A stretch of DNA of 55,684 bases from NCBI GenBank assembly GCA_903866825.1, contig CAIPPE010000255.1, positions 1 to 55,684 on the forward strand. Reading direction: 5' to 3'. Positions within the stretch are counted from its first letter, which is position 1; each line of letters begins with the position of its first letter. A program made the translations under genes and the position numbers. The notes beneath the pieces were generated by a model. That model did no database searches. It was not told the DNA's origin and saw nothing but the letters and a program-made list of their open reading frames with translations. Source of the DNA: an uncultured Methylococcaceae bacterium (GTDB lineage Bacteria; Pseudomonadota; Gammaproteobacteria; Methylococcales; Methylomonadaceae). Below, in pieces: positions 31,818 through 55,479 of this stretch.

Positions 31818-31957
31818 AATTCATACCAAATAAAATCCAAATTGGACCAACATATCATATTAATTTCATTTGACAAGTTTGACATTTTTAAACTATCCTT
31901 AAATCAAGTTTAATATTTGTAATTTTTTTAATTTTTCCTCTTTTTATGGTATTTCCC

Positions 31958-32308
31958 ATGACTTTCTTACACAAATCGTACCTCAAAACCTGCTTAGCCA
32001 TTACTATTGCTGCTTTTTGTTTTTCTGCACACGCTGAAGTTGATGTCGATGCCGCTAAAGCTTTAGCCAAAGAAAACGGTTGTTTTAGATGCCATGGCAC
32101 TGATAAAGACAAGGATGGTCCAGCCTGGAATAAAGTTGCTGCGAAATACAAAGGGGACGCAAAAGCCCAAGAAAAACTCCTGCAACACCTTTCTTCTGGA
32201 AGAAACGTCAAATTTGCTGACGGACATGAAGAAGCACACACTATCCTAAAGGCCGAAGATCCTAAGGCTGCTGCCAATCTGGCTGATTTTATTCTTTCTT
32301 TAAAATAG
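31958..32308 (+). CDS. Small periplasmic class I cytochrome c
   Basis: Signal peptide, one heme motif CFRCH, GPAWNKVAAKYKGD..., C-terminal NLADFILSLK. Confidence 0.9.
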   Translation: MTFLHKSYLKTCLAITIAAFCFSAHAEVDVDAAKALAKENGCFRCHGTDKDKDGPAWNKVAAKYKGDAKAQEKLLQHLSSGRNVKFADGHEEAHTILKAEDPKAAANLADFILSLK

Positions 32309-32425: not shown

Positions 32426-33382
32426 ATGAACACATTAATTAAAATCATCATGCTGTGCGGGCTCCTCGTTGGATCCTCCTATGCTGCAAATAACCCGACG
32501 ACCACCACTAAATCACCTGCTCAAGCATTGGACAGGGATTCAGTGTGTACTACTTGCCACGATGAGAATGAAGCCAAACCCATTCTCTCAATTTATCAAA
32601 CTGCGCACGGCAACAAAGCCGATTCACGGACACCCTCTTGCCAATCATGTCATGGTCAAAGCGAGAAACATCTGAGCAGTAAAAGTTCTGCACCAGATGT
32701 TATTTTTGGTGCAAAAACGACAGGTGCATTTTCACCCAACGCAGCCAAAGAACAAAATGCAAGCTGCTTGTCTTGTCACGAAAAAGATCCTACCCGGACC
32801 CATTGGCAAGGCGGCGCTCATCAGGCGGCAGATCTAGCCTGTACTTCATGCCATGTAGTTCATAATGCACATGACAAAGTACGAGAAAAACAAACTCAAA
32901 GAGACGTATGCTTTACCTGTCATAAGGATCAAAAAGCACAGTCTAACAAGTTTTCACATCACCCAATTCCTGAAGGCAAAATCGCTTGCTCCGATTGCCA
33001 TAACCCACATGGCTCTGCAGGCCCCAAATTACTGGTCAAAAGCACTGTGACTGAAACCTGCTACACCTGTCATGCAGAAAAACGCGGCCCTTTCCTCTGG
33101 GAGCATCAGCCAGTCACTGAAGATTGTACTAACTGCCACACCCCTCATGGATCGAACATTACACCTTTATTGAAATCACGGGCCCCCTTCATCTGTGAAG
33201 AGTGCCACGATGGTCCACATAACAGTAAAACCCCGACTGCTGAAAATGCAGCAGGCATACAAGGAGGACTAACAGGCTCTCCTGCAAACCCAAGTACTAG
33301 CTATACCGGTCGTGCTTGTATGAATTGCCACAGCATGGTGCATGGATCAAATGATCCAGCTGGCGCCTTATTGCAACGCTAA
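32426..33382 (+). CDS. Decaheme c-type cytochrome, DmsE/MtrA family
   Basis: 318 aa, signal peptide, ten CxxCH motifs counted: CTTCH, CQSCH, CLSCH, CTSCH, CFTCH, CSDCH, CYTCH, CTNCH, CEECH, CMNCH. Confidence 0.93.
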   Translation: MNTLIKIIMLCGLLVGSSYAANNPTTTTKSPAQALDRDSVCTTCHDENEAKPILSIYQTAHGNKADSRTPSCQSCHGQSEKHLSSKSSAPDVIFGAKTTGAFSPNAAKEQNASCLSCHEKDPTRTHWQGGAHQAADLACTSCHVVHNAHDKVREKQTQRDVCFTCHKDQKAQSNKFSHHPIPEGKIACSDCHNPHGSAGPKLLVKSTVTETCYTCHAEKRGPFLWEHQPVTEDCTNCHTPHGSNITPLLKSRAPFICEECHDGPHNSKTPTAENAAGIQGGLTGSPANPSTSYTGRACMNCHSMVHGSNDPAGALLQR

Positions 33383-33400
33383 CCCACAACGGAGACAATC

Positions 33401-35740
33401 ATGAAAATTCGTAATGACGAAATGAAGGTCAGCATCATGGCTCTAGCGATACGCTGTGCATTGTTGGCAACTACCACACTCCCGTTTGGAGCTTATGCAT
33501 TAGCCGATGAAGCAACGGATGAACTTACAAAACCTTCAAATACGGTTAATTTTGGTGCTTTATATGCAGACCAATCCTCTGCCAGGTTTGGTCAATATAA
33601 CGGATTAAATAACCAAGGTGCCTATGGTTTGGGCGGTTTTGATATACGCGGGGGCAACGGCTACGATCAAAATAGCGGTAGCGGACTCCGCTGGAAATTA
33701 GGCGGCTCTAACCTTGGAACAACATCTAGAGAGCTCGATGGCTCTGCCAGCGATCAAGGTAAATGGAAAATCAATCTTGGCTATGATGAACTGCAACACA
33801 ACATCACTAATAGCTATATAACACCATTACAGGGTAATCCCGGTGATAATAACTTTACCCTGCCGTCAAACTTTGGCTCCATCAATACGGCGAGCGGTCA
33901 ACCAGGGACCAGAAGCCTAACACCTGCCCAGTCCTCTGACTTTCAGGGTGTAAATGAATCGGTCAATCGCAAAACAGGTTCGTTTGGCTCAACTTATACA
34001 TTCAGCCCACAATTAAGTGCACAAATTGATTATAAGCACTTAGATCAATCTGGTGCAAAGCTAATTGGTACAGGATCACAGGGTGGAATAAACTTAGTAG
34101 GTGGCTCTACAGGCAAAGCCGAAGCTAACATGCTGATTTTAAACCCTACCAGCTATCAAACCGACAATGTTAACGCAGCCTTGAGTTGGAGAGGTGATAA
34201 AGGAAATTTGACTGGCGGATATTATGGCTCAATATTTCATGATGATTATAATAGCCTAAGCTGGCAAAGTCCTATGACCTCTGCAGCCAGTAAATGTATA
34301 GGAGTTAATTGTTATTCCAATAACACTATGAGCACTGCGCCAAGCAATAGCTTGCATCAGGCGAATCTCACCGGTGGCTATAATTTTGGCTATGACACCA
34401 AAATAGCGGGAGGGTTTTCTTATGGTTACAACCAGCAGAACTCCAGTTTCGCACCCACCTTGATTCCTCAAGCTAGTGGAGTTGCTTACAATATGATGCA
34501 AGCCAATGGCCTACCTACTTCATCACTTAACGGTGTTGTAGAAACCAAACACGGTGATGTCAAACTAACCAACCAGAGCATTAAAGATTTGACATTGACT
34601 GCAGGCTATAAAATCAATGAGCGCGACAACCGCACCGATTCAAATGCGTATAAATACATGACTATCTCTGTTGAGCCTTATACAGGGGTTAATACTCCTT
34701 ATAGCAATCGTAAGATGCAATATGAAGCAACAGCTGCTTATCGTTTAACCAAATCCCAAAATATAAACTTTGGCTACGAACATGAAAGCATAAAACGTTG
34801 GTGTAACGGAGTATTAGGTGGTGCTCAATGTGTGTCGAGTCCGGCCAGTAACGAAGATAAAATGAATCTGACCTATCGGTTAAAAGCACTCGACAGCGTT
34901 AACTTTAATGCTGGCTATACCTATGCAAACCGCCGCGCTGAGAATGATCCTAATTTCCTCGCAAATGCAGGTAATTATGCTTCAACCACGGCTGTTTCAA
35001 GTTCAGCCCTAAATGCTGGTAATTTCCTTGGCTACATTGCCTATCCTTATGCTAACCGTGACCAAAACTTAGGTAAAGCTGGAGTCACTTGGCAAATCAC
35101 CCAAAAACTGGATTTAGGTGTCAATGGTCGTTATACTTATGACACTTACGATGCAAAACTGGGTGTACAAAATGGTCAGGCAGCAGGGGTGAATGTTGAT
35201 GCGACTTATAACTATGCAGAAAACAGCAATGTGTCTGCCTATTGGAATTGGCAAAATGGACAAAGAAACTTGCGGAGCGCGGCAAGTGGTAATGGTGCAT
35301 CACAAATAGTAGCGCCTACCAATATTTGGAGTAACCGACTCAATGACGTAAGTAATACCGTAGGTATATTGACTCGCCGTAATGGCTTGTTAAACGGGAA
35401 GATAGATCTGATTGGCGATTTATCTTATTCATTGGATACTACCAGCTATTCAACACAAGTGCCTTATAGCTCAACTTGTGGACTGTCAACGACACTTACT
35501 TGCGGTGCTTTATCGCCCATTAAGAATGAAATGTGGAGTTTAAAGTTAACCAGTAATTACCAACTCTACAAAAACGGTAAATTATCTTTAACTTATATGT
35601 ATCAAAAGTTAAACAGCAATGATTACTTTTATAACTCCCAAATGGTTGGCTATACCCCAAACTCTTTAATGCCAACCAACTTACAAATGCAAAATTATGC
35701 GGTTAATGTGATTGGCCTAACATACAACCACAGTTTCTAA
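33401..35740 (+). CDS. MtrB/PioB family decaheme-associated outer membrane beta-barrel protein
   Basis: 779 aa with signal peptide, alternating beta-strand pattern and terminal aromatic (LTYNHSF), directly downstream of the decaheme cytochrome. Confidence 0.87.
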   Translation: MKIRNDEMKVSIMALAIRCALLATTTLPFGAYALADEATDELTKPSNTVNFGALYADQSSARFGQYNGLNNQGAYGLGGFDIRGGNGYDQNSGSGLRWKLGGSNLGTTSRELDGSASDQGKWKINLGYDELQHNITNSYITPLQGNPGDNNFTLPSNFGSINTASGQPGTRSLTPAQSSDFQGVNESVNRKTGSFGSTYTFSPQLSAQIDYKHLDQSGAKLIGTGSQGGINLVGGSTGKAEANMLILNPTSYQTDNVNAALSWRGDKGNLTGGYYGSIFHDDYNSLSWQSPMTSAASKCIGVNCYSNNTMSTAPSNSLHQANLTGGYNFGYDTKIAGGFSYGYNQQNSSFAPTLIPQASGVAYNMMQANGLPTSSLNGVVETKHGDVKLTNQSIKDLTLTAGYKINERDNRTDSNAYKYMTISVEPYTGVNTPYSNRKMQYEATAAYRLTKSQNINFGYEHESIKRWCNGVLGGAQCVSSPASNEDKMNLTYRLKALDSVNFNAGYTYANRRAENDPNFLANAGNYASTTAVSSSALNAGNFLGYIAYPYANRDQNLGKAGVTWQITQKLDLGVNGRYTYDTYDAKLGVQNGQAAGVNVDATYNYAENSNVSAYWNWQNGQRNLRSAASGNGASQIVAPTNIWSNRLNDVSNTVGILTRRNGLLNGKIDLIGDLSYSLDTTSYSTQVPYSSTCGLSTTLTCGALSPIKNEMWSLKLTSNYQLYKNGKLSLTYMYQKLNSNDYFYNSQMVGYTPNSLMPTNLQMQNYAVNVIGLTYNHSF

Positions 35741-35786: not shown

Positions 35787-35831
35787 AGCCCAATAAATGC
35801 AGACTCATTGATTTGCTTTATTGGGCTTTTA
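35787..35831 (+). terminator. Rho-independent terminator after the mtrB-like gene
   Basis: AGCCCAATAAA...TTTATTGGGCTTTT, perfect 11-bp stem with T run. Confidence 0.8.
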
Positions 35832-36056
35832 TAAGCTATACCCAGTTAGACTAAGCCTTCGTACCAACCCGTTTATCTACAAGAAAGCCCATTTTACCTA
35901 ATTAACTGGAGAAACTATTTTCATAAGGACAACTGAAAATATATACCCCACTCTAATATTTTAACACTCATATAGTAATTATTAACTTTTTTTCAAACCA
36001 AACTTTATTCAAGATAACTTAACGAGATTAAATCTCATAACCCTGAGAGTAAAAAA

Positions 36057-36842
36057 ATGATTAATCTAAGAGATGATTTAACTTTAGGTCACCTGTCTGT
36101 GACAAACAGGGTTTTGTTTTCTGGCTTCTTGTTCGTTATTGGTATAGGCCTACTCATGTCAGGACTCCAAATATTGCTGACCCATGGCATGGCGGATGGT
36201 GAACCCGGCCTTTCGAAAAAAGATATTGTTTATAGCTTTTATGGAAATCGCTCAGGCTCTAAATTAGAGACCGCGCTTAACGGAAAGATGAAAAGCAAAG
36301 CCCCACCCGAAGTTAACGAGATGCTGATTCGATGGGCCCATGATGGAGCACCTAAAGCGGAATGGGATAGTAAAATTAGTGCCGCTGTTGAAAAACATTG
36401 TTATAAATGCCATGATGAAGAATCCGACTTACCCCAATTAACTAAATATGATGTCGCGAAAGGCTTGGCTGAAGTTGATCAAGGTGCAAGTATCAGCTCA
36501 CTCACACGCGTCTCACATATCCACTTATTTGGTATCAGCTTTATATTTCTATATGTTGGATGGATTTTCAGCATGGCAGTATTTAACCCTTTCTGGAAAC
36601 TGATTTTAATATCATCACCCTTCGCCTTCTTGGTGATAGATGTTAGTTCATGGTGGATCACAAAATTCTGGCCTGACTTTGCAATTATTACCATGCTAAG
36701 CGGTATCGGCTATAGCATTGCGGTCATGATTATGTTTGTCACCTCTTTTGCCCAAATGTGGTTACCAAAATGGACCAAACCATCGCAATCTAACATTTAT
36801 GCAATCGTAAGAGAAAACTACAACAGAAAAAAAAGTGCTTAA
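36057..36842 (+). CDS. Integral membrane monoheme cytochrome c-like protein, paralog 1
   Basis: 261 aa; about 4 predicted TM segments, periplasmic CYKCH, conserved SSLTRVSHIHLFGISFIFL. Confidence 0.75.
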   Translation: MINLRDDLTLGHLSVTNRVLFSGFLFVIGIGLLMSGLQILLTHGMADGEPGLSKKDIVYSFYGNRSGSKLETALNGKMKSKAPPEVNEMLIRWAHDGAPKAEWDSKISAAVEKHCYKCHDEESDLPQLTKYDVAKGLAEVDQGASISSLTRVSHIHLFGISFIFLYVGWIFSMAVFNPFWKLILISSPFAFLVIDVSSWWITKFWPDFAIITMLSGIGYSIAVMIMFVTSFAQMWLPKWTKPSQSNIYAIVRENYNRKKSA

Positions 36843-36872
36843 TTCCCTTTAAATCCTTTCAGTCATTGGCAC

Positions 36873-36905
36873 TTGGCATCAACCGGACCTGTTCATTGAT
36901 GCCAA
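36873..36905. terminator. Inverted repeat between membrane cytochrome paralogs 1 and 2
   Basis: TTGGCATCAA...TTGATGCCAA perfect 10-bp arms. Confidence 0.45.
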
Positions 36906-37043
36906 ATAACACCCTCCTAGCAAAATTAGAAACAAATTCCTTAGTACTTGTCGTAGAATAAACACCTTCGTTAACTGTAGCTTCATTAATTAAGCGACTC
37001 TTCAGTTACCTCAACTTTTAACTCTAACTTTAGGAACAGAAAG

Positions 37044-37769
37044 ATGACTGAAATTTTACATAAGCTAACATTGGGTAAGCTTCCTTTAACCTACCGATTT
37101 TTGTTCACCAGTTTTTTATTGGTAGTTGGCCTGGGTTTGTGTATGGCAGGCGCTCAAATCATGCTCACACATGGGATGGCTGATGGTAAACCCGGATTAT
37201 CCATGGATGATATTGTGTATAGCTATTACGGCAATCGTTCTGGCTCTAAACTGGAATCAGCGCTTACCGGCAAAATGAAAGATAAAGCCCCAGCATCTGT
37301 TAACATTACCCTAATAAAATGGGTACGGGATGATGCGCCAGAAGCCGAATGGGCAAAAGTTGGTCCTTTATTTGAACAACACTGTTCAAAGTGCCACGAT
37401 GCTGAATCAGGATTACCCGAAGTAACTAAATTAGAAGTTGCAAAAAGCCTCGCTGAAGTGGATCACGGTGAAAGTATTAGCTCTTTAACCCGGGTTTCAC
37501 ACATTCATTTATTTGGAATTAGTTTTATTTTCTTATTTGTTGGATTAATTTTTGCGATGGCAGAATTTAACCCTTTTTGGAAGATCGTACTTATAACAAC
37601 GCCTTTTGCTTTTTTAGTCCTGGACGTTGCCTCTTGGTGGCTAACCAAATTCTGGCCCGAATGCGCCTGGTTTACGATGATAGGTGGTTTAGGATATAGT
37701 CTGGCTGCCTTAATTATGTTTGGTGCTTCTTTTGCTCAAATGTGGCTACCTCGCTGGACCCAAAAATAA
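37044..37769 (+). CDS. Integral membrane monoheme cytochrome c-like protein, paralog 2
   Basis: 241 aa; CSKCH motif and near-identical framework to paralog 1 (THGMADGKPGLSMDDIVYSYYGNRSGSKLESAL...SSLTRVSHIHLFGISFIFLFVG). Confidence 0.75.
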   Translation: MTEILHKLTLGKLPLTYRFLFTSFLLVVGLGLCMAGAQIMLTHGMADGKPGLSMDDIVYSYYGNRSGSKLESALTGKMKDKAPASVNITLIKWVRDDAPEAEWAKVGPLFEQHCSKCHDAESGLPEVTKLEVAKSLAEVDHGESISSLTRVSHIHLFGISFIFLFVGLIFAMAEFNPFWKIVLITTPFAFLVLDVASWWLTKFWPECAWFTMIGGLGYSLAALIMFGASFAQMWLPRWTQK

Positions 37770-37796
37770 CCCCGCCCTGTTTTCCCAATATTGACT

Positions 37797-37819
37797 GTGG
37801 GGCGAAATAATCGCCCCAC
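37797..37819. terminator. Bidirectional terminator between the two convergent cytochrome modules
   Basis: GTGGGGCGAaataaTCGCCCCAC perfect 9-bp stem. Confidence 0.65.
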
Positions 37820-37852
37820 TATTAAACATACCCTCGGCCAACTCAACTTTAA

Positions 37853-38599
37853 TTAGATTGACGCTATATGAACAGGCTGCCTGGAATAAAACCACATCTG
37901 GTAAATACTCATTAAAATCTGAAAGCCCATAGATAGCCCCATTAAGGCCCCGCTATAAACCACGACATAAGCAAATGAGGGTGTTGATTTGGTAATAAAC
38001 CAGGAAATAACATCCAGTAACATTGCAAAAAACGGAATAACCACGGTAACTCTTTTTACATTTGCATCAATATCACAGAGCAGAAAGATTTTGCCTATAA
38101 AAAACAGGATAAAGGCAATCCCAAATAAATGGATATGGGAAACGCGCACCAGCGTGGGTAAGGTTGCTCCTCCCGGATGCGCCACTTGTGACACGGTTTC
38201 ATAATGCGTTAAATCCGGCAAAGACGGGTTAACACTTGGCGTATGACATAAAATACAATCCCGATTCAGAATCGGTGCAATCTCGTCATTATAGCCAGCT
38301 TCATCGGCACCATTATGTATCCATCGCAAAATTACGTCTTTATCACCGATATAACGCAGATTATTTTTCATAATGCCGTTAATTGCATTACCTAAACGGG
38401 TCTGGTTACTATTGCCATGGTAACTGATCACCACATCTTCTACCGAGAGTCCCGCTTTGCCATCCAGGCCTTGATGAGTAAAGTACATATTCGTCAATGC
38501 CATCAAATAGCCCAGACCGATTGTTAAGAGAAATACGGTATTTAAAATTCTCTCACTGACAGAAATATCTTTAAAACGGATATAGTGTTTCTCGTACAT
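37853..38599 (-). CDS. Integral membrane monoheme cytochrome c-like protein, paralog 3
   Basis: 248 aa; CILCH motif; shares THQGLDGKAGLSVEDVVISYHGN and TLVRVSHIHLFGIAFILFFIG with paralogs 1 and 2. Confidence 0.75.
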   Translation of the reverse strand: MYEKHYIRFKDISVSERILNTVFLLTIGLGYLMALTNMYFTHQGLDGKAGLSVEDVVISYHGNSNQTRLGNAINGIMKNNLRYIGDKDVILRWIHNGADEAGYNDEIAPILNRDCILCHTPSVNPSLPDLTHYETVSQVAHPGGATLPTLVRVSHIHLFGIAFILFFIGKIFLLCDIDANVKRVTVVIPFFAMLLDVISWFITKSTPSFAYVVVYSGALMGLSMGFQILMSIYQMWFYSRQPVHIASI

Positions 38600-38609
38600 A
38601 ATTGCTCCT

Positions 38610-39983
38610 TTAGAACGCTAACCAGCCATTTAGCATGAAGGTGTTGTTATTTTGTGCATCCGTATTGGAGCCATTAAACTGAGAATAACCAATATACTGT
38701 AAGCTGGTACGCAAGTTCATCAGATAATGATAGGTATCCGATTTACCAAAAGGCACATACACAAGCTCTGCCGTAAAGTATTGACTGTTCGGCCTTGACA
38801 GATAATATCCGGCGTCGGGCGAATAAAGATTCGCATCCTGTGAACCCGTTACCCGATTATAGCCAAAGGTAACACCATAGGTTTGATCGTAGGTATAAGC
38901 GGCATTAATTTTATACGTTGTTAAATAGGTGTTGCCACTGGCAGCAAGCCCCCCGGCCAAACGGGTCGCCGTTAATTTCTGATCTTCGTAAATGTACGTC
39001 GTTTTAGCTTCAAAAATATGCTTGGGATTACCCATATACTGGTAGGTCGCATCAACAGCTAAATCCGAATAATGATCCGTACCGTTGCTGCGGTCCCGCC
39101 CCGGAAAGACATCCGCAATCATGCCATAATGACCCAATGAAACATAATGCCCTTGCCAGTCTTTTTGTAAGGCAGCCCGCCAATAAGGCGCTGCACCATC
39201 AATTTGTTGCTGACCCGCATCCGCAACGCCCAAACCTTTTTGCACCTTGTAATTCAATGAAGAATAACCACCAGCCTCAAGGTATAACAGATTATTAATC
39301 ATGGTATAGGCTGTCGCCCCACCCACCTGGGTAGAAAAAGCACCGTCAATTAAAGAGGAGGCTCCTATACCGGGTTGTACAGCACTCCCAGTATAAGGAA
39401 AGCTCCATGCTGAGGTGGTGTTCCACAAATCCTGTACCGTCGGATTGTTGTTCAGAGAAATACCATAGGTTACAGGGATATCGGTATCTAACTGATCTGC
39501 AAAGCGGATATCGGTATTATCTAGAGCCAGTCTATCCGAATAGCCATCATAGGTAAGCTGGCTAAAAGCCCCCACTTTTCCATAAATACGACCAGCATAA
39601 AACAAAGACGCCTGATCAAAGGTAAAGTTATTGTTCTGGTTATAACCCGAAGCAAAACCTGTAGCATCCTGATCTTTTTGGGTATGCGTTAACGAGCCTT
39701 GGACCATCCCGCTCAAGGCGGGTACTTTAGCCTCAATCCCTTTGCCTCCGCTCATGGTATAACCGCCTAATTTAAACTCACGACCAAAAGGGGTTAAATT
39801 AGGACCAAATGATTGGGTATGGCAAACATTACAATTTTGGCCTGTCTGCCGGGAAAAACTGGGCACTGCATTGGTTGGCGAACTCATCAATAGCAGAACA
39901 GTTGCCAATACCAGTAGGCATGCCTGAAAAACAGTGGGGGTTGTCGTTCGTTTGATAGTAGCTTGCATAAATTTTCTCATCAA
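38610..39983 (-). CDS. Cyc2-like fused monoheme cytochrome-outer membrane porin
   Basis: 457 aa: signal peptide, then AVPSFSRQTGQNCNVCHTQSFGPNLTPFGREFKLGGYTM (heme motif CNVCH), then a roughly 380-aa beta-barrel-like region ending NTFMLNGWLAF. Confidence 0.78.
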   Translation of the reverse strand: MMRKFMQATIKRTTTPTVFQACLLVLATVLLLMSSPTNAVPSFSRQTGQNCNVCHTQSFGPNLTPFGREFKLGGYTMSGGKGIEAKVPALSGMVQGSLTHTQKDQDATGFASGYNQNNNFTFDQASLFYAGRIYGKVGAFSQLTYDGYSDRLALDNTDIRFADQLDTDIPVTYGISLNNNPTVQDLWNTTSAWSFPYTGSAVQPGIGASSLIDGAFSTQVGGATAYTMINNLLYLEAGGYSSLNYKVQKGLGVADAGQQQIDGAAPYWRAALQKDWQGHYVSLGHYGMIADVFPGRDRSNGTDHYSDLAVDATYQYMGNPKHIFEAKTTYIYEDQKLTATRLAGGLAASGNTYLTTYKINAAYTYDQTYGVTFGYNRVTGSQDANLYSPDAGYYLSRPNSQYFTAELVYVPFGKSDTYHYLMNLRTSLQYIGYSQFNGSNTDAQNNNTFMLNGWLAF

Positions 39984-45685: not shown

Positions 45686-47086
45686 ATGAAACAACCTGAA
45701 AAACGATCACTTAAAAAAGGCCTTAAAACCCTTTCTGCTGTCGCTGCCATTATTGCCTTAAGCTTTGCCTCATCAGCGGAAGCGGTAGAAAAATTAGAAA
45801 AGGAAAACCTAAAGTTAGGCTTTATTAAATTAACCGACATGGCCCCGTTAGCGGTTGCTTATGAGAAAGGCTACTTTGAAGACGAAGGACTTTCCGTACA
45901 ACTGGAAGCCCAAGCCAACTGGAAAGTCTTATTGGATCGCGTCATTAATGGCGAATTAGATGGGGCGCACATGTTGGCAACCCTACCCTTTGGCACAGCC
46001 ATTGGTTATGGCACTAAAGCCGATATTGTCAGCGCCTTTACCCTGACTTTAAACGGCGATGCCATTACCGTCTCCAATGATGTTTGGGCGCAAATGAAAC
46101 CACACATACCGATGAAAGACGGTAAACCTGTGCACCCTATTAAAGCGGATACCTTAAAACCGGTGTTAGAAAAATATAAGAATGCAGGCAAGCCCTTTAA
46201 CATGGCGATGACCTTCCCGGTCGGTACCCATAATATGAAACTGCGCTATTGGTTGGCAGCGGGGGGAATTAAGCCCGGTTATTATGCGCCACCCGAAGAT
46301 ACCTCAGGACAAATTGATGCGGAAGCCCTGTTATCCGTCACACCGCCACCCCAAATGCCAGCAACTATGGATTCAGGCACTATTGCAGGCTACTGTGTGG
46401 GCGAACCCTGGAATCAACAGGCCGTTTTCAAAGGGATAGGCGTTCCGGTTATTAGCGATTACGAGCTGATGAAAAACAGTCCAGAGAAAATATTCGGGGT
46501 GACTAAAGACTTTGCCGATAAAAACCCTAATACGCACTTAGCCCTTATTAAAGCACTGATTAGGGCCTCACTCTGGTTAGATGCAGAAAATAACAAGAAT
46601 CGTAATGAAGGTATCGAAATGCTCTCACAAAAACAATATGTGGGGGCTGATTATGAAGTACTGGCTAACAGTATGAATGGCACTTTCGAATACGAGAAAG
46701 GTGATAAACGCCCCTTGACGGACTTTAATGTGTTTTCTCGCTACAACGGTTCTTACCCTTATTACAGTGATGCGATATGGAGCTTGACTCAAATGCGTCG
46801 TTGGGGACAAATCAATGAACAAAAACCCGATGCCTGGTATCTTGAAACCGCAAAGAAAGTCTACCGCCCTGATATCTTTATGACTGCAGCCCATGCCTTA
46901 ATCAAAGAAGGTAAAGCCAAAGCCAGTGATTTTCCTTCAGACCAGGAAACCGGCATTAAAGCCCCGAATGCTGATTATATTGACGGCGTTGTTTTTGATG
47001 CCACGAAACCGAATGATTACTTAAATAAATTTGCTATTGGACTAAAAGGCAAACAAAAAGTAGTCGGTAGCAAAGTGGTTGAATAA
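45686..47086 (+). CDS. nrtA: Nitrate/nitrite ABC transporter substrate-binding protein (NrtA/CmpA-like)
   Basis: LKLGFIKLTDMAPLAVAYEKGYFEDEGLSVQLEAQANWKVLLDRVINGELDGAHMLATLPFGTAIGYG; GYCVGEPWNQQAV. Confidence 0.95.
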   Translation: MKQPEKRSLKKGLKTLSAVAAIIALSFASSAEAVEKLEKENLKLGFIKLTDMAPLAVAYEKGYFEDEGLSVQLEAQANWKVLLDRVINGELDGAHMLATLPFGTAIGYGTKADIVSAFTLTLNGDAITVSNDVWAQMKPHIPMKDGKPVHPIKADTLKPVLEKYKNAGKPFNMAMTFPVGTHNMKLRYWLAAGGIKPGYYAPPEDTSGQIDAEALLSVTPPPQMPATMDSGTIAGYCVGEPWNQQAVFKGIGVPVISDYELMKNSPEKIFGVTKDFADKNPNTHLALIKALIRASLWLDAENNKNRNEGIEMLSQKQYVGADYEVLANSMNGTFEYEKGDKRPLTDFNVFSRYNGSYPYYSDAIWSLTQMRRWGQINEQKPDAWYLETAKKVYRPDIFMTAAHALIKEGKAKASDFPSDQETGIKAPNADYIDGVVFDATKPNDYLNKFAIGLKGKQKVVGSKVVE

Positions 47087-47137
47087 TCACTTTAAAGCAC
47101 TCTAAGAAACCCGTTGAACTTGCTTAAGGTAAAAACC

Positions 47138-48154
47138 ATGAATAACCAACTCATTAAATTTTTTAACATCACCGGTTTAACCTGGTTTGTGCCTTTAGTA
47201 AAAATGGCATCCGGTGAAAACCCCACCCAACAACTTCGGCAATTATTTTTAATCATGGGCGTGCCGATTATCGCCTTTACTGTGTTCTTGGGTGTTTGGA
47301 GTGTCTCTGCTTCACAAGTCAACACCAGCTTAGGTGCAATTCCTGGTCCAACGGCGGTTTGGCATGAAGCCAAGGGCTTATTGTCCGAACACTTTGCTGA
47401 AAAAGAAAAAGAAGCCGCATTTTATCAACGTCAGCAAGACCGTCATGCTCAAGCACTGTTAGAAAATCCAGCCGCCGAGATTAAATCACGGCCTTATAAC
47501 GGCCAGGCAACTTATCTGGATAAAATCTTTACGAGTCTCTACACAGTATTTGCCGGTTTTATAATTGCGACCCTGATTGCCGTCCCGTTAGGGCTACTGT
47601 GTGGCATGAGTTCCGTGATTAATACCGCCATTAACCCATTGATTCAGATATTTAAACCCGTGTCACCTTTGGCCTGGTTGCCGATTGTCACGCTCGTCGT
47701 CAGTGCTATGTATGTGACCACCGATGATTCCTGGTTTGAGAAATCCTTCTTAACCTCGGCCATTACCGTCACCTTATGTTCATTATGGCCGACTTTAATT
47801 AATACCGCAGTGGGTGTTTCATCCATCGATAAAGATTTAGTGAATGTCGGAAAAGTGTTGCGCCTAAACTGGTTTACGCAAATCAGGAAAGTCATTTTAC
47901 CATCCACCTTACCGTATATCTTTACCGGTATGCGTTTATCACTCGGGGTGGGCTGGATGGTCTTGATTGCCGCTGAAATGTTAGCTCAGAACCCTGGCTT
48001 AGGAAAGTTTGTCTGGGATGAGTTTCAAAATGGCAGCTCAAACTCCTTGGGACGCATCATGGTTGCCGTGTTTACTATCGGTATCATTGGCTTTATTTTA
48101 GATCGCATCATGCAATCGTTTCAAAAAGTATTTTCTTTCGGTAACGCCCTTTAA
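47138..48154 (+). CDS. nrtB: Nitrate ABC transporter permease
   Basis: IATLIAVPLGLLCGMSSVINTAINPLIQIFKPVSPLAWLPIVTLV; SSIDKDLVNVGKVLRLNWFTQIRKVILPSTLPYIFTGMRLSLGVGWMVLIAAEM. Confidence 0.94.
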   Translation: MNNQLIKFFNITGLTWFVPLVKMASGENPTQQLRQLFLIMGVPIIAFTVFLGVWSVSASQVNTSLGAIPGPTAVWHEAKGLLSEHFAEKEKEAAFYQRQQDRHAQALLENPAAEIKSRPYNGQATYLDKIFTSLYTVFAGFIIATLIAVPLGLLCGMSSVINTAINPLIQIFKPVSPLAWLPIVTLVVSAMYVTTDDSWFEKSFLTSAITVTLCSLWPTLINTAVGVSSIDKDLVNVGKVLRLNWFTQIRKVILPSTLPYIFTGMRLSLGVGWMVLIAAEMLAQNPGLGKFVWDEFQNGSSNSLGRIMVAVFTIGIIGFILDRIMQSFQKVFSFGNAL

Positions 48155-48167
48155 TCTGGAGTCTGTG

Positions 48168-49934
48168 ATGTCTGCCTTAAAACTTAAACTGGTTACAGCT
48201 AACGAAAACACGGACCTAAAAGAAAGCACTGTGTTTATGAATACCCCGTCAAATGACCCGTGCTTGCCTTTAGTTGAATTAAAAAATGTATGCAAAAGCT
48301 ACGGTGAAGGCAACGCTAAAACCTCTATCTTAAAGAACATTAACTTAACAGTGAAAGAAGGTGAATTTATTGCCATTGTCGGTTTTTCTGGCAGTGGTAA
48401 AACGACACTCATTTCAACCATTGCGGGTTTAATCCAGGCGGATAGCGGTGACGTCTTAAAACAGGGTGCTCCGATTACTGGCCCCGGGCCTGATCGGGGT
48501 GTGGTGTTTCAAAACTATTCCTTAATGCCCTGGTTAACCGTTTATGAAAATGTGGCTCTTGCTGTCGATGCCATCTTTAAAGACTGGTCTGCCGCAGAAA
48601 GAAAAGCCCATACCGAAAAATACATTCGTATGGTTAACTTAGGCGCTGCGATGACTAAAAAACCCGCTGAATTATCAGGCGGGATGCGGCAACGGGTTAA
48701 TGTCGCCAGAGCCTTAGCAGCCAGTCCTGATATTTTATTACTGGATGAACCCTTAAGTGCCTTGGACGCTTTAACGCGGGGGAACTTGCAAGATGAGATT
48801 TTACAAATCTGGGCGCAAGAAAAGAAAACTGTAATATTAATTACCAATGATGTGGATGAAGCAATTTATATGGCTGACCGCGTGATTGCTTTAAACCCAG
48901 GCCCTGATGCCACTTTTGGCCCTGACTTTATTATTGATATTGAGCGCCCACGGGACAGAACCGCGTTAAATCAAAACGACACCTTTAAAAAGTTACGCGC
49001 TGAAATCACCCAATACTTAATGGCCATTGGTATTGAAAAGAACCAGGCGGTTGGCACGGATAAAATCACTTTACCTAACGTTCAACCCAATACCAGTCAT
49101 CATTGGCAAGTGGGTAGTTCTGCTCTTAATCATCCCGACGTTGCTAAACCCCGTTATTTAGAGTTTTCTCAACTTTCAAAAATCTATCCAACACCCGATG
49201 GTAACAGTACCGTTAAAGTGGTGGATGGCTTCGATTTAAAAGTTAAAAAAGGCGAGTTTATTTCTATTATTGGCCATTCTGGCTGCGGTAAATCAACCGT
49301 GTTATCCATGACTGCCGGCTTAAATAGTATTTCTGAGGGCGTCATTGTTTTAGACAATAAAGAAATTAACGGTGCGGGGCCAGATAGAGGCGTAGTGTTT
49401 CAAGCACCCAGTTTATTTCCCTGGTTAACCGCGTATGAGAACGTGGCCTTAGGGGTTGAGAAAGTGTACCCCCATGCCACCGCCGCAGAACGCAAAGATA
49501 TTATTGAATATTATCTAACCCGAGTGGGTTTAGGCGATGTCTTACACAAAAAAGCCCAAGCCTTATCCAATGGCATGAAGCAACGGGTCGGTATCGCCAG
49601 AGCTTTTGCTTTATCACCTAAACTGCTCTTATTGGACGAACCTTTTGGCATGTTAGATTCTTTAACCCGCTGGGAATTACAGGAAGTCTTAATGGAAGTG
49701 TGGGAACGCACCCAAGTGACCGCGATTGTAGTGACTCATGATGTGGATGAAGCTATCTTATTAGCCGACCGCGTGGTGATGATGACTAATGGCCCTCATG
49801 CCAAAATTGGCAAGATAGAAACCATTGATTTACCTAGACCTCGAACCCGTAAAGCCTTGTTAGCCCACCCTGATTATTACAAATACCGAGAGAGTTTACT
49901 GAGCTTTCTTGCCGAATGTGAACACACCCATTAG
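48168..49934 (+). CDS. Fused tandem nitrate ABC transporter ATPase (two ABC domains in one chain)
   Basis: Two Walker A motifs (GFSGSGKTT, GHSGCGKST), two signatures (LSGGMRQR, LSNGMKQR) and two Walker B motifs (ILLLDEPLSALD, LLLLDEPFGMLD). Confidence 0.93.
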   Translation: MSALKLKLVTANENTDLKESTVFMNTPSNDPCLPLVELKNVCKSYGEGNAKTSILKNINLTVKEGEFIAIVGFSGSGKTTLISTIAGLIQADSGDVLKQGAPITGPGPDRGVVFQNYSLMPWLTVYENVALAVDAIFKDWSAAERKAHTEKYIRMVNLGAAMTKKPAELSGGMRQRVNVARALAASPDILLLDEPLSALDALTRGNLQDEILQIWAQEKKTVILITNDVDEAIYMADRVIALNPGPDATFGPDFIIDIERPRDRTALNQNDTFKKLRAEITQYLMAIGIEKNQAVGTDKITLPNVQPNTSHHWQVGSSALNHPDVAKPRYLEFSQLSKIYPTPDGNSTVKVVDGFDLKVKKGEFISIIGHSGCGKSTVLSMTAGLNSISEGVIVLDNKEINGAGPDRGVVFQAPSLFPWLTAYENVALGVEKVYPHATAAERKDIIEYYLTRVGLGDVLHKKAQALSNGMKQRVGIARAFALSPKLLLLDEPFGMLDSLTRWELQEVLMEVWERTQVTAIVVTHDVDEAILLADRVVMMTNGPHAKIGKIETIDLPRPRTRKALLAHPDYYKYRESLLSFLAECEHTH

Positions 49935-49962
49935 CCGCAAAGCCACACCAACAACTTAAACG

Positions 49963-49986
49963 GGGTCGAACACGCTGTTCGAACTC
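49963..49986. promoter_or_regulatory. Hairpin between the nrtCD fusion and porin genes
   Basis: TCGAACA cgc TGTTCGA perfect 7-bp core, extendable with flanking GGGG/CTCC-type pairs. Confidence 0.45.
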
Positions 49987-50034
49987 CTCAACCTGAATAA
50001 ATTAAACATCTTAAATTATAAGATAGGGGTCGTT

Positions 50035-51336
50035 ATGTCTAAAAATCAAAGTATTGTGCCATTTTCAGCTGCATTATTATCACTGTCAGTAGTCAGCTTC
50101 TCAGCATTAGCTGATGTTACTCAAGATATTGAAGACGCACTCAACTTTTATCATTACGGTAAAAACGGTGCCATCAAGTTTGATTTAAACACCCGCTTTG
50201 AAGATGTAAATCAATATAATGTCAGAAGCCCTGCACTCAACGGCAAAACACTTCCTGCTTCAAAACAACCTTCGACCGCTAATGCCGTAACATCACGCTT
50301 ACGTCTAGGTCTTCTTTCTCCTGTTTTTCATGGTCTGCAAGGTTACGCCGAATACGAAGGTGTGTATGCCATGGACTCTGATTACAACAGTTCCGTCAAT
50401 GGAAAAACGAACTATTCAACCATTAAAGACCCTTACGTTAATGAATTGGATCAATTATGGCTCAGTTATGCAGGGATCTCCGACACACTGATCAAAGGGG
50501 GTCGTCAACGTATTAAACTCGATGATGATCGATTTATTGGTAATGTGGGTTGGAGACAATTAGAGCAAACCTATGATTCTGTTTTAATCACCCATAACAA
50601 TCAACAGCTTTTTGGTTTAACCATTAATGCCGGCTATATCGGTAATGTTAAAACCTTTACTTCAACCAATGTCGGCATTAACGCCCCGCTGTTAAATATC
50701 AATTATAAAGTCGGTGATTATGGCAACTTGATCGGTTATGGCTACTGGCTAGACTATACAGACCGTGTGAACTATGCAAACTCTAACCAAACCTATGGCC
50801 TACGTTTTACCAATTATCTAAAACCAGGCGACTCGTTCAAAGTGAATGATAACCTGGGACTGCTTTATACCGCTGAATGGGGGATTCAATCTGATTATGT
50901 CAATAGTCCTCAACACTATACCGTTGATCGCTACAACTTCATGGGCGGTGTAACAGCCTTCAATATTACTTTACAAGGCGCAATGGAACAAAAAAATGGC
51001 ATTGGTGCCAATAAAACATTTATTACTCCTTTAGGTACTAACCATGCTTTTCAAGGCTGGGCTGATATCTTCCTCATAACACCCAGCAATGGTATTCGTG
51101 ACATTTTTGGAACCTTAACGACTACTTTAGATAGGGGCAGCGTTTCCTTATCCGGCATATACCATGATTTTTATAACGACACTGGCAGTATTCATTATGG
51201 TAGCGAATGGGACTTTATGGCCACTAAAAAATTCGGAAAACACTACTCCATATTAGCCAGTTACGCTTATTACAATGCGGATCATTATGATACGGATACC
51301 CAAAAAATATGGGTGTCGGGCAATATTAGTTTCTAA
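50035..51336 (+). CDS. Outer membrane porin, alginate-export-like family
   Basis: Signal peptide; FDLNTRFEDVNQYN..., TSRLRLGLLSPVFHGLQGYAEYEGVYAMD, QRIKLDDDRFIGNVGWRQLEQTYDSVLI; C-terminal aromatic WVSGNISF. Confidence 0.8.
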   Translation: MSKNQSIVPFSAALLSLSVVSFSALADVTQDIEDALNFYHYGKNGAIKFDLNTRFEDVNQYNVRSPALNGKTLPASKQPSTANAVTSRLRLGLLSPVFHGLQGYAEYEGVYAMDSDYNSSVNGKTNYSTIKDPYVNELDQLWLSYAGISDTLIKGGRQRIKLDDDRFIGNVGWRQLEQTYDSVLITHNNQQLFGLTINAGYIGNVKTFTSTNVGINAPLLNINYKVGDYGNLIGYGYWLDYTDRVNYANSNQTYGLRFTNYLKPGDSFKVNDNLGLLYTAEWGIQSDYVNSPQHYTVDRYNFMGGVTAFNITLQGAMEQKNGIGANKTFITPLGTNHAFQGWADIFLITPSNGIRDIFGTLTTTLDRGSVSLSGIYHDFYNDTGSIHYGSEWDFMATKKFGKHYSILASYAYYNADHYDTDTQKIWVSGNISF

Positions 51337-51399
51337 ATCTTGATCGCTTATCCCTATTAGCTTATCAACATTGCAGCTCTATCAGCATTGAGGTTGAAC

Positions 51400-53940
51400 A
51401 TGAACACATCTAAAAAAACCCTGGTTGTCATTGGTAATGGCATGGTCGGACACCATTTTTTAACCAGTCTAGTCAATAGTCCTATCAAAGAAACCTATCA
51501 CATCGTGACTTTTTGCGAAGAACCCAGAGCGGCTTATGATCGTGTTCACCTCTCTGCTTTTTTCTCAGGACAAACCGCAGACGATTTATCCTTAGTCGAA
51601 CCGGGCTTCTTTGAGCAACACGGCATCACCCTCCATATCGGGGATAAAGCCGCCCAGATTAACCGAGAAGAACAAACAGTCCTCTCAGACAAAGGTGTTC
51701 TCATTCATTATGATACCTTGGTGTTAGCCACCGGCTCTTTTCCATTTGTACCGCCTGTGCCCGGTCATGATAGACCCGAATGCTTAGTGTATCGAACCAT
51801 TGAAGATCTTGAAGCCATTGCCACGGTTGCTCAAAAAAGTAAAGTGGGCGTGGTCGTAGGCGGTGGTTTATTAGGTTTAGAAGCCGCTAAAGCCTTACAT
51901 GATTTAGGTCTAAAAACTCACGTGGTCGAATTTGCCCCCCGTCTCATGGCGGTGCAATTAGATGAAGCGGGTGGCGCCCTGCTAAGACATAAAATAGAAC
52001 ACTTAGGTGTCACCGTACACACCGGAAAAAATACCCAGTTAATTACAGACGGCGAACACTGCTTTAATAAAATGTGTTTTGCCGATGGTGAAGAACTGGA
52101 AACAGACCTCATTTTATTCTCTGCCGGCATTCGTCCCCGTGATGATATTGCCAGAGCGTGCGGACTTGAGGTCGGGCCTAGAGGCGGGATTGTGATCGAC
52201 AATCAATGTAAAACCTCCGATGCGAATATTTATGCGATAGGTGAATGTGCGCTTTGGAATGGCATGATCTATGGCTTAGTCGCGCCCGGTTATGCCATGG
52301 CTCGCACTGTGGTAGCCGATCTTGCTAGCCAACCAGCCAGTTTTACCGGTGCCGATATGAGTACTAAACTAAAACTCATGGGTGTTGATGTAGCCAGTAT
52401 CGGTGATGCCCATGCGAAGTCTCAAGGTGCCCTCACCTACACCTATCAAAACGGTGATCTGGAAATTTATAAACGTATTGTGGTCAGCGCCGATAAAAAA
52501 CACTTGTTAGGCGCAGTCTTAGTTGGTGATGCGTCCGGTTATAGCACCTTATTACAATACTGTTTAAATGGCATAGAATTACCGGAACATCCAGACACCT
52601 TAATTTTACCCAGTCGTTCTGATGAATCCGGCGGACTCGGTCCTGATGCGTTACCACTGTCTGCGCAAATATGTTCTTGTTATGATGTCAGTAAAGGCGA
52701 TATCTGCCAAGCCATTGAAGCCGGTTGCAGCACGGTCGGTGACTTAAAAGCCTGCACTAAAGCCGGTTCGGGTTGTGGCGGTTGTGCGGCTTTAGTTAAA
52801 TCCGTATTAAACTCAGAACTGACTAAACAAGGTATCACCGTTAATACCGATTTGTGTGAGCATTTTGCCTACACCCGACAAGATCTGTTTACCCTCATTA
52901 AAGTCGAAAAGATTACCACTTTTGATGATCTGATTGAAAAACATGGCCACGGTTTAGGGTGTGACATTTGCAAACCTACCGTTGCCTCTATTCTGGCCTC
53001 TAACTGGAATGACTTTGTCTTAAAACCAGAACTCGCACCCTTGCAAGATAGTAATGATGCCTTTTTAGCCAATATTCAAAAAGACGGTACCTATTCAGTA
53101 GTACCGCGCATTGCCGGTGGGGAAATTAGTCCTGATATGTTGATTACATTAGGTCAGGTCGGTAAAAAATACCAACTCTATACCAAGATAACCGGTGGGC
53201 AACGGGTGGATTTATTCGGTGCGAGAGTTGAACAATTGCCGTTAATATGGAAAGATCTGATTGATGCGGGTTTTGAATCCGGTCATGCCTACGGAAAATC
53301 CTTGCGTACCGTTAAATCCTGTGTCGGCAGTAATTGGTGCCGTTATGGGGTTGATGACAGTGTCGGTTTAGCCATCGAACTTGAAAATCGTTACAAAGGC
53401 CTCCGCTCCCCGCATAAAATTAAGTTTGCCGTCTCAGGCTGTACCCGAGAATGTGCAGAAGCCCAAGGTAAAGACGTAGGTATTATTGCAACCGAACACG
53501 GTTGGAGTTTATATGTGTGCGGCAATGGTGGCATGAAACCGCGTCACGCTGATTTATTTGCCACCCATTTAGATAAAGAGACTTTAATTGAATACATAGA
53601 CCGCTTTTTAAGTTTTTATATTCGCACCGCCGACCGTTTACAACGCACCTCGGTATGGATGGAAAACATGGAAGGCGGCCTCGATTATTTAAAGTCCGTC
53701 ATTATCGAAGATAACCTGGGGCTGTGTGAACAATTAGAAGCGCAAATGCAACACGTCGTTGATACCTATCAATGTGAATGGAAAACCACGATTGAAGATG
53801 AATCCAAGTTAAAACGCTTTAAACACTTTATCAATAGCGACCAAGCCGATGACAACATCGTCTTTATTGAAGAACGTGGACAGCTTCGTCCGGCTGAAAC
53901 TAAAGACCAAAAACATTTTAAACTCGTGGAGGTTGCGTAA
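51400..53940 (+). CDS. nirB: Assimilatory nitrite reductase (NAD(P)H) large subunit
   Basis: NIR_SIR siroheme/4Fe-4S motifs CVGSNWCRYG and VSGCTRECAEAQGKDVG, BFD-like CSCYDVSKGDICQAIEAGCSTVGDLKACTKAGSGCGGC; N-terminal FAD domain. ATG at 51400 with upstream GAGG preferred over TTG 51388. Confidence 0.97.
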   Translation: MNTSKKTLVVIGNGMVGHHFLTSLVNSPIKETYHIVTFCEEPRAAYDRVHLSAFFSGQTADDLSLVEPGFFEQHGITLHIGDKAAQINREEQTVLSDKGVLIHYDTLVLATGSFPFVPPVPGHDRPECLVYRTIEDLEAIATVAQKSKVGVVVGGGLLGLEAAKALHDLGLKTHVVEFAPRLMAVQLDEAGGALLRHKIEHLGVTVHTGKNTQLITDGEHCFNKMCFADGEELETDLILFSAGIRPRDDIARACGLEVGPRGGIVIDNQCKTSDANIYAIGECALWNGMIYGLVAPGYAMARTVVADLASQPASFTGADMSTKLKLMGVDVASIGDAHAKSQGALTYTYQNGDLEIYKRIVVSADKKHLLGAVLVGDASGYSTLLQYCLNGIELPEHPDTLILPSRSDESGGLGPDALPLSAQICSCYDVSKGDICQAIEAGCSTVGDLKACTKAGSGCGGCAALVKSVLNSELTKQGITVNTDLCEHFAYTRQDLFTLIKVEKITTFDDLIEKHGHGLGCDICKPTVASILASNWNDFVLKPELAPLQDSNDAFLANIQKDGTYSVVPRIAGGEISPDMLITLGQVGKKYQLYTKITGGQRVDLFGARVEQLPLIWKDLIDAGFESGHAYGKSLRTVKSCVGSNWCRYGVDDSVGLAIELENRYKGLRSPHKIKFAVSGCTRECAEAQGKDVGIIATEHGWSLYVCGNGGMKPRHADLFATHLDKETLIEYIDRFLSFYIRTADRLQRTSVWMENMEGGLDYLKSVIIEDNLGLCEQLEAQMQHVVDTYQCEWKTTIEDESKLKRFKHFINSDQADDNIVFIEERGQLRPAETKDQKHFKLVEVA

Positions 53941-54275
53941 TGTCACACTGGCAAACTATTTGTGAAGTAGATGCTTTGCAAGCTAATTCAGGGGTCTGCG
54001 CTTTAGTCGAAGGCCAACAAGTGGCGGTCTTTTATATGCCTAAATCACAATCGGTGTTTGCACTGCATAATTATGATCCCTTTGCTAAAGCGAATGTGTT
54101 ATCCCGAGGCATTATTGGCGACATCAAAGGCGAACCTATTGTGGCTTCCCCCGTGTATAAACAACATTTCAACTTAAAAACCGGCTGTTGTCTTGAAGAC
54201 GAGACCGTTAAGATACCCGCGTATTCGGTACGCATTGACCAGTCACACGTTCAGATTAATCTTGATTATGACTAA
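53940..54275 (+). CDS. nirD: Nitrite reductase small subunit
   Basis: 111 aa Rieske-like NirD fold sequence; ATG overlaps the nirB stop. Confidence 0.92.
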   Translation: MSHWQTICEVDALQANSGVCALVEGQQVAVFYMPKSQSVFALHNYDPFAKANVLSRGIIGDIKGEPIVASPVYKQHFNLKTGCCLEDETVKIPAYSVRIDQSHVQINLDYD

Positions 54276-55479
54276 GCTAGTCGTGATTGGAAACGGGATG
54301 GCAGGAATGCGGACTGTCGAAGAAGTGTTAAGAGCCGACCCGCATCAGTATGAGATTACCGTGTTTGGTGCTGAGCCGCATGCTAATTACAACCGTATTA
54401 TGTTATCTTCTGTACTGAGCGGTGAAAAGAACCTGGAAGACATCTTTATCAATGATCGTGCGTGGTATCAGCAACATAACATTACGCTGCATACCGGTGC
54501 GGATAAAACCGTGGTGTCTATTGATCGGCAATTAAGACAGGTAGTGACTCAAGACGGTACGGTGGCAGCGTATGATCGACTCTTAATCAGCACCGGTTCA
54601 AAAGCCGTGTTGGCCGATATACCCGGTAAGTCTTTAACCGGCGTACTTAGTTTTAGAGACATTGCCGATGTTCAATCTATGTTGTCTTACAGCCAGACGC
54701 ACCAAAAAGCGGTGATCTTAGGTGGTGGTTTATTAGGCCTTGAAGCCGCAAATGGCTTAGCCTTAAGAGGCATGGACGTGACGGTGATTCATAACAACGC
54801 CGTGTTATTGAATCGTCAAATGGATCAACACGCCAGTAAAATACTGCAAAAAGAGCTTGAACAAAAAGGCTTAACATTTAAGATGGCGGCCAACGTTAAA
54901 CAGTTGGTCGGTGATGAAATGGGGCATATCAAAGCGGTGCATTTTGCTAACGGTGACAGCCTAGACTGTGATTTATTTATCATGGCGATTGGTGTGCGAC
55001 CTAATATTAAGCTAGCCAAAGCCGCAGGTCTGTACTGTGAAAAAGGCATTGTGGTCAATGACACTCTGCAAAGTTATGATCCTCGTATTTATGCCGTAGG
55101 CGAATGTATTCAACATCGAGGCGAAACCTTTGGCCTTGTTGCGCCCTTGTATGAGCAAGCTAAAGTCTGCGCCAATCATTTAACCGAACATGGCGTGGCC
55201 CAATACTTAACGTTACCCACGGCCACTAAACTTAAAGTGACAGGCATTAACCTATTTTCGATGGGTGACTTTATCGGTGATGAATCCTCAGAAACGATTC
55301 AGTTTACCGACTCTGACTTAACCATCTATAAAAAACTGATCATTAAAGCGAATAAACTGGTCGGTGCGGTATTATATGGCGACACCCGTGATAGTTTTTG
55401 GTACCAAGAGTTACTCGAATCAGAACAATCGATAGCGGACATCCGAGCAGGACTCATCTTTGGAAAAGCGTATGTTTAA
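54268..55479 (+). CDS. FAD/NAD(P)-dependent oxidoreductase, NirB-N-terminal-like (probable nitrate reductase electron transfer component)
   Basis: LVVIGNGMAGMRTVEEVL, NYNRIMLSSVLSGEK, ILGGGLLGLEAANGLALRGMDVTVIH; located between nirD and nasA. Confidence 0.88.
   Translation: MTKLVVIGNGMAGMRTVEEVLRADPHQYEITVFGAEPHANYNRIMLSSVLSGEKNLEDIFINDRAWYQQHNITLHTGADKTVVSIDRQLRQVVTQDGTVAAYDRLLISTGSKAVLADIPGKSLTGVLSFRDIADVQSMLSYSQTHQKAVILGGGLLGLEAANGLALRGMDVTVIHNNAVLLNRQMDQHASKILQKELEQKGLTFKMAANVKQLVGDEMGHIKAVHFANGDSLDCDLFIMAIGVRPNIKLAKAAGLYCEKGIVVNDTLQSYDPRIYAVGECIQHRGETFGLVAPLYEQAKVCANHLTEHGVAQYLTLPTATKLKVTGINLFSMGDFIGDESSETIQFTDSDLTIYKKLIIKANKLVGAVLYGDTRDSFWYQELLESEQSIADIRAGLIFGKAYV

Follow-up and report, generated by a model that had tools for sequence, protein, structure and literature searches.

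Four-helix monoheme membrane cytochromes form a widespread unnamed family with clade-level links to outer-membrane electron conduits

Three genes beside the outer-membrane electron conduits of an uncultured Methylococcaceae bacterium belong to a widespread family of unnamed inner-membrane cytochromes. The family is old and broad, and linkage to conduits is a property of particular clades within it. The genes lie in a contig of 55,684 nucleotides (CAIPPE010000255.1, hereafter the window). The original prediction put them forward as an undescribed component, which holds insofar as neither Pfam nor NCBIfam has a model for them and no relative has been solved, but not for the MtrAB-linked member, which was published together with its synteny in a 2026 paper (PMC13322032). 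New here are the view across the whole family, a conserved site on the P side, separate origins for the two lineages joined in the window, and the flavin-linked homologs.

Three paralogs in the window

The genes and sites in the window are as follows.

31946..32308, + strand: periplasmic monoheme cytochrome c, opening the cytc-mtrA-mtrB-family gene cluster (PF00034, E 2.5e-8; recurrent synteny)
32426..33382, + strand: mtrA, decaheme cytochrome of the MtrA/DmsE family (TIGR03508, 292.6 bits, cut-off 192.2; 10 CxxCH)
33401..35740, + strand: mtrB, outer-membrane barrel of the MtrB/PioB type (TIGR03509, 450.6 bits, cut-off 240; PF11854)
35787..35832, + strand: hairpin followed by TTTTA after mtrB, likely terminator (11-bp perfect stem, 19-nt loop; z -4.6)
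36057..36842, + strand: P0001, 4-TM monoheme cytochrome, clade I, MtrAB-linked, 261 aa (ORF, alignment, tree)
36399..36413, + strand: P0001 heme c site CYKCH (motif match in DNA)
36507..36533, + strand: P0001 RVSHIHLFG at the start of TM2 (translation, alignment)
37044..37769, + strand: P0002, 4-TM monoheme cytochrome, clade I, tandem paralog of P0001, 241 aa (ORF, alignment, model, tree)
37383..37397, + strand: P0002 heme c site CSKCH (motif match in DNA)
37491..37517, + strand: P0002 RVSHIHLFG at the start of TM2 (translation, conservation)
37797..37819, no strand assigned: hairpin separating the convergent genes P0002 and P0003 (hairpin scan)
37853..38599, - strand: P0003, 4-TM monoheme cytochrome, clade II, 10 bp downstream of the Cyc2-like gene, 248 aa (ORF, tree)
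38243..38257, - strand: P0003 heme c site CILCH (motif match in DNA)
38120..38146, - strand: P0003 RVSHIHLFG at the start of TM2 (translation, alignment)
38610..39983, - strand: Cyc2-like monoheme cytochrome-porin, first of a two-gene unit with P0003 (AVPSFSRQT...CNVCH...PNL)

Most of what had been predicted for these proteins was borne out. All three ORFs are intact, and together with an AlphaFold2 model of P0002 (pLDDT 88.7, 43-sequence alignment) they support paralogs of 261, 241 and 248 aa with four transmembrane helices each, modeled in P0002 at residues 15-42, 145-171, 177-203 and 205-234 with the heme loop between TM1 and TM2. Each protein carries exactly one CxxCH (CYKCH, CSKCH and CILCH, matched in the DNA at 36399, 37383 and 38243), and this motif aligns across the three along with THxxxDGxxGLS and the invariant RVSHIHLFG at the start of TM2. 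A proposed YxGN motif survives only in part, as YGN, YGN and HGN. P0001 is 67% identical to P0002 and 36% identical to P0003, and the cytoplasmic helix ends of P0001 and P0002 are basic. All three paralogs are real, but a fourth copy in the same genome had been missed (G000:C323:43492-44190, adjoining tilS).

The strong T-tailed hairpin after mtrB makes separate transcription of P0001 and mtrAB probable in this genome; membership of P0001 in an mtrAB operon here is doubtful given this terminator, even if close relatives still keep the gene order. P0003 very likely shares a transcript with the Cyc2-like gene. The latter has no match in Pfam or NCBIfam, and departs from the published Cyc2 motif, AXPXFAR[Q/K][T/Y]..CXXCH..PXL (PMC8406198), by a single S-for-A substitution and a small difference in spacing. 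Methylobacter has been reported to carry Cyc2 cluster 2 plus MtrA/MtrB (PMC12810054). Farther along the window, at 45686-55479, genes for a substrate-binding protein, a permease and ABC components precede genes for NirB-like and related reductases; the group resembles a nitrate/nitrite assimilation cluster and has no relation to the 4-TM cytochromes.

Relation to known systems

Sequence searches with P0001-P0003 found no Pfam, NCBIfam or PDB family, only sub-threshold matches to the heme loop. Haem_bd (PF14376), which scored 16.6 and 12.7 bits under a gathering threshold of 27, Cytochrome_CBB3 (PF13442) and PccH (PF22297) show a weak likeness confined to the CxxCH stretch of that loop, below the gathering score in the members tested. 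Foldseek against the PDB returned nothing below E 0.2 for either of two models, one of the cytochrome family and one of a short heme-less form described below. The proposed job, from the quinol pool to periplasmic or outer-membrane cytochromes, is shared with NapC/NirT/NrfH/CymA (PF03264), but the family has one heme rather than four, four transmembrane helices rather than one, and no match to PF03264 at E 1 for P0001-P0003; by these tests the two are not homologous.

The closest published precedent is a 4-TM cytochrome beside mtrB in Methylococcales, for which an inner-membrane electron role was inferred (PMC13322032). As far as the accessible part of that paper goes, its locus has the same order (cytc, MtrA, MtrB, 4-TM monoheme cytochrome), four transmembrane helices and no signal peptide, and P0001 and P0002 agree with it in helix count, single CxxCH and position downstream of mtrB, a comparison made by description rather than by sequence. 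That part deals with the MtrAB-linked type within Methylococcales and mentions neither the Cyc2-like clade nor members linked to hydrogenases or cytochromes, and neither the conserved site nor homologs without heme. We found no paper on the signature RVSHIHLFG, nor on the 4-TM family as such, in a literature search that took in few subscription journals.

Distribution and phylogeny

At least 553 relatives occur in GTDB contigs, and this number, along with residues that are 100% conserved in 171 members, argues that the motif pattern is not chance. The family is present in 48 of 61 genomes among the window's relatives and matches 65 of 370 Gammaproteobacteria at E 1e-10, a few of these being only the distant heme-less form. 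A second class of the same phylum, probably Zetaproteobacteria, carries it in 48 of 60 genomes; Cyc2-like matches occur in 54 of those 60, consistent with that assignment.

A FastTree phylogeny of the 171 members shows two deep clades. P0001 and P0002 fall in a 27-row clade (support 99) with 23 MtrAB-linked rows, and P0003 falls in the other deep clade, within a 12-row group (support 99) in which 7 rows are Cyc2-like-linked by label count. Since the copies lie in different deep clades and have different partners, their placement in the tree indicates that P0001/P0002 were recruited to mtrAB, and P0003 to the Cyc2-like gene, separately. The Cyc2-like linkage label changes at least five times on starred branches, also in families outside Methylococcales, and the [NiFe] hydrogenase label (structural or maturation genes) changes three times.

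Genomic neighbors

Proteins with CxxCH are enriched close to family members, at 69/664 within two genes against 19/764 at six or more genes (odds ratio 4.5, p 3e-10) and, with MtrAB and Cyc2-like loci removed, at 32/531 against 15/629 (2.6-fold odds, p 0.0014), in gene-pair counts that take in related genomes and, like the co-occurrence statistics below, ignore phylogeny. Cyc2-like genes were found in 13 of 40 family-positive and 3 of 40 family-negative genomes (p 0.01), and in one genome (G079) the Cyc2-like match ends 33 bp ahead of the family member. Co-occurrence with MtrB is weak (9/60 family-bearing Gammaproteobacteria against 21/309 others; odds ratio 2.4, p 0.04). With 51 of the 60 bearers having no MtrB homolog, MtrAB linkage was rejected as a general property of the family; outside Methylococcales most members are unlinked to MtrAB. 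The predicted tie to outer-membrane conduits thus stands for P0001-P0003 and their clades but not for much of the family, where homologs are consistently unlinked, the very pattern named in advance as counting against it.

[NiFe] hydrogenases and small c-type cytochromes also occur as partners. At two loci (L058 and L064) the family gene sits beside hydrogenase structural genes, and in four genomes of the second class (L243, L245, L247, L248) it lies inside a hydrogenase maturation cluster, flanked by a HybE-type chaperone gene and a large-subunit-like gene, with hypA/hypB adjoining. No tagged redox neighbor occurs within three genes in 98 of the 171 tree rows (about 57%), and several copies stand alone beside housekeeping genes (tilS, priA-hemE, clpB).

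Some further arrangements recur. The four maturation clusters also contain a HyaE-type gene. P0003-like members at L237, L239, L241, L246, L251 and L254 adjoin a triheme class I cytochrome of 273 aa, with hemN frequent and a monoheme cytochrome occasional. In Gallionellaceae (L048, L050, L066, L074, L075, L076, L078) a fixed block of hemE, priA and the family gene is closely followed by an FAD-linked oxidase gene (PF02913/PF01565). Adjacency to HemN and HemE, which might have hinted at heme biosynthesis, occurs in two unrelated blocks. At L112 (G018:C1:3003088-3005248) a family gene is seemingly split in two, possibly by an insertion, with a 379-aa ORF between the halves and a Cyc2-like gene on each side.

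The copies inside maturation clusters, and those alone beside tilS, priA-hemE or clpB, are what might be expected if the protein were not a respiratory carrier but had an accessory, assembly or sensing role toward periplasmic redox enzymes, for instance by supplying redox equivalents during hydrogenase or cytochrome maturation. MtrAB and Cyc2-like proteins are structural components of conduits, however, and L058 and L064 adjoin structural rather than maturation genes of the hydrogenase, and we regard an accessory role as quite unlikely.

Conserved residues and a periplasmic site

Twelve positions are 100% conserved in the 171 members (G76, M78, W93, C114, C117, H118, S152, H153, H155, D194, W198 and G215 in P0002 numbering), and H43 and K202 are kept in 96% and 97%. 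In a topology model with the N-terminus inside, the invariant positions map to the heme loop or to the periplasmic side of the helices, and variation is greatest in the N-tail, in stretches of the loop and in the half of TM3 toward the cytoplasm. This placement suggests a heme c, with Met as its likely sixth ligand, and a single P-side site that would bind a quinone or another cofactor. Under the topology model, the conservation fits a one-sided reaction at the P-face rather than a trans-membrane wire; if H-x-H is a quinol site, the pattern demands no transmembrane heme wire.

The helices could instead be only an anchor for a shuttle whose heme loop is reduced by bc1 or some other complex and passes the electrons to acceptors in the periplasm or outer membrane, the H-x-H being structural or a second ligand of heme c. 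Such a protein would need just the one heme and no known quinone motif, as observed; enrichment near soluble cytochromes fits a docking role, and bc1 is also encoded in the genome that PMC13322032 describes. A mere anchor does not need an invariant H-x-H, D194 and W198 within its helices, however, and the H-x-H is kept in homologs that have no heme motif, which argues that the site has a heme-independent function. We therefore think it unlikely that the membrane domain is only an anchor.

Heme-less homologs and a flavin link

Two heme-less forms are related to the cytochromes by profile alignment: a 215-aa form with a Met/His-rich loop (hhalign probability 99.2, E 1.3e-19) and a 166-aa short form that lacks the loop domain (E 1.8e-9); they also match each other (E 2.9e-10). 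The same four helices are predicted for the short form (pLDDT 73.7). The H-x-H is retained in both, His43 is absent from the Met/His-rich form, and the Asp is not strictly retained in the short form.

The short form was detected in 103 of 151 Methylococcales genomes, a count that includes some cross-hits to the cytochrome family, and in 43 of 45 loci it immediately follows an FMN_bind gene, mostly one with an [ST]GAT flavinylation motif; the FMN_bind call is anchored by one example in which PF04205 exceeds its cut-off. This unit (for example L158:7231-8279, + strand, and L159:4453-5510, - strand) is conserved in Methylococcales and often follows a porin-like gene. It looks like an unlisted class of flavinylation-associated membrane partner. 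Pairing with a flavinylation-motif FMN_bind protein is what the heme-less homologs share with the five listed classes (NapH-, MsrQ-, PepSY-, DsbD- and NQR/RNF-like; PMC8238504), and none of the Pfam families of those classes matches the four-helix proteins.

The Met/His-rich form is in an operon with a DUF4198 gene, and cation-efflux type genes lie nearby. At L157:6854-10221, L150:7656-10793 and L154:7335-10513 the series comprises an outer-membrane-type protein, DUF4198, the Met/His-rich homolog and a small 'AHKGHAGP' protein for which no family was found, an operon possibly devoted to metal handling.

These surroundings, together with known flavinylation systems that include DUF4198 or iron transporters (PMC8238504), are consistent with a second cofactor (heme b, Cu or Fe) bound at the H-x-H and Asp in the periplasmic leaflet, which would make the protein a two-cofactor cytochrome or a metal-handling redox protein whose heme-less forms reduce metal for uptake. 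The H-x-H, the Asp and a nearby His would be a plausible ligand set, but it is one that the homologs do not hold intact, His43 and the Asp each failing in one of them, and we give this possibility little credence.

Heme/flavin swaps are documented in extracytosolic electron transfer (PMC8238504). The FMN_bind pairing, taken with such substitutions elsewhere, is most simply read as a single four-helix module whose periplasmic redox partners are exchangeable, heme c seemingly standing in for a flavoprotein partner. By extension, and tentatively, there may be a superfamily of four-helix modules with a periplasm-facing H-x-H that pass quinol electrons to heme c, to an ApbE-flavinylated FMN_bind protein or to a Met/His-rich loop; we find this conceivable but somewhat doubtful.

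Proposed function

As a whole, the evidence is best read as electron transfer between a P-side quinone or quinol and periplasmic carriers, a CymA-like job done by an unrelated sequence, a reading that we hold at a little short of an even chance. The original prediction of an inner-membrane entry or exit module doing CymA's job fits the data as a function that we infer, and PMC13322032 makes the same inference for the MtrAB-linked copy. In this mechanism both termini would be cytoplasmic, with TM1 an uncleaved signal anchor, and the TM1-TM2 loop would place a single heme c in the periplasm, with the invariant G-x-M methionine as its probable sixth ligand. The TM1-TM4 core may form a site at the periplasmic leaflet from the H-x-H at the start of TM2, the Asp/Trp/Lys at the end of TM3 and His43 at the end of TM1, which would handle quinol or quinone one electron at a time next to the heme. 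The protein would thereby exchange electrons between the quinone pool and periplasmic carriers, with P0001 and P0002 working for the cytc-MtrAB conduit and P0003 for the Cyc2-like protein, in the outward direction or, should Fe(II) be the donor, inward. The scheme builds on observed sequences, conservation, synteny and homology to the heme-less forms and on a topology model; that heme is attached, that Met ligates it and that quinone binds is deduced, as are the partners and the direction. In its favor, the partners vary, yet MtrAB, Cyc2-like proteins and [NiFe] hydrogenase all need periplasmic or outer electron transfer; against it stand the absence of a solved or fold-matched homolog, the 98 rows with no tagged redox neighbor within three genes, the mtrB terminator and the weak MtrB co-occurrence.

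In bacteria that lack CymA, the route by which electrons pass from the quinone pool to outer-membrane conduits is an open gap, as is the matching step in Cyc2 organisms. The family is a concrete candidate, found in many methanotrophs, in Gallionella-like iron oxidizers and in most genomes of the second class, and the FMN_bind link makes the proposal testable with small soluble proteins. If the superfamily reading is true, the four-helix module would add a sixth transmembrane class to the five that flavinylation systems are known to use, and would act as a CymA-type hub common to MtrAB, Cyc2-like and hydrogenase systems.
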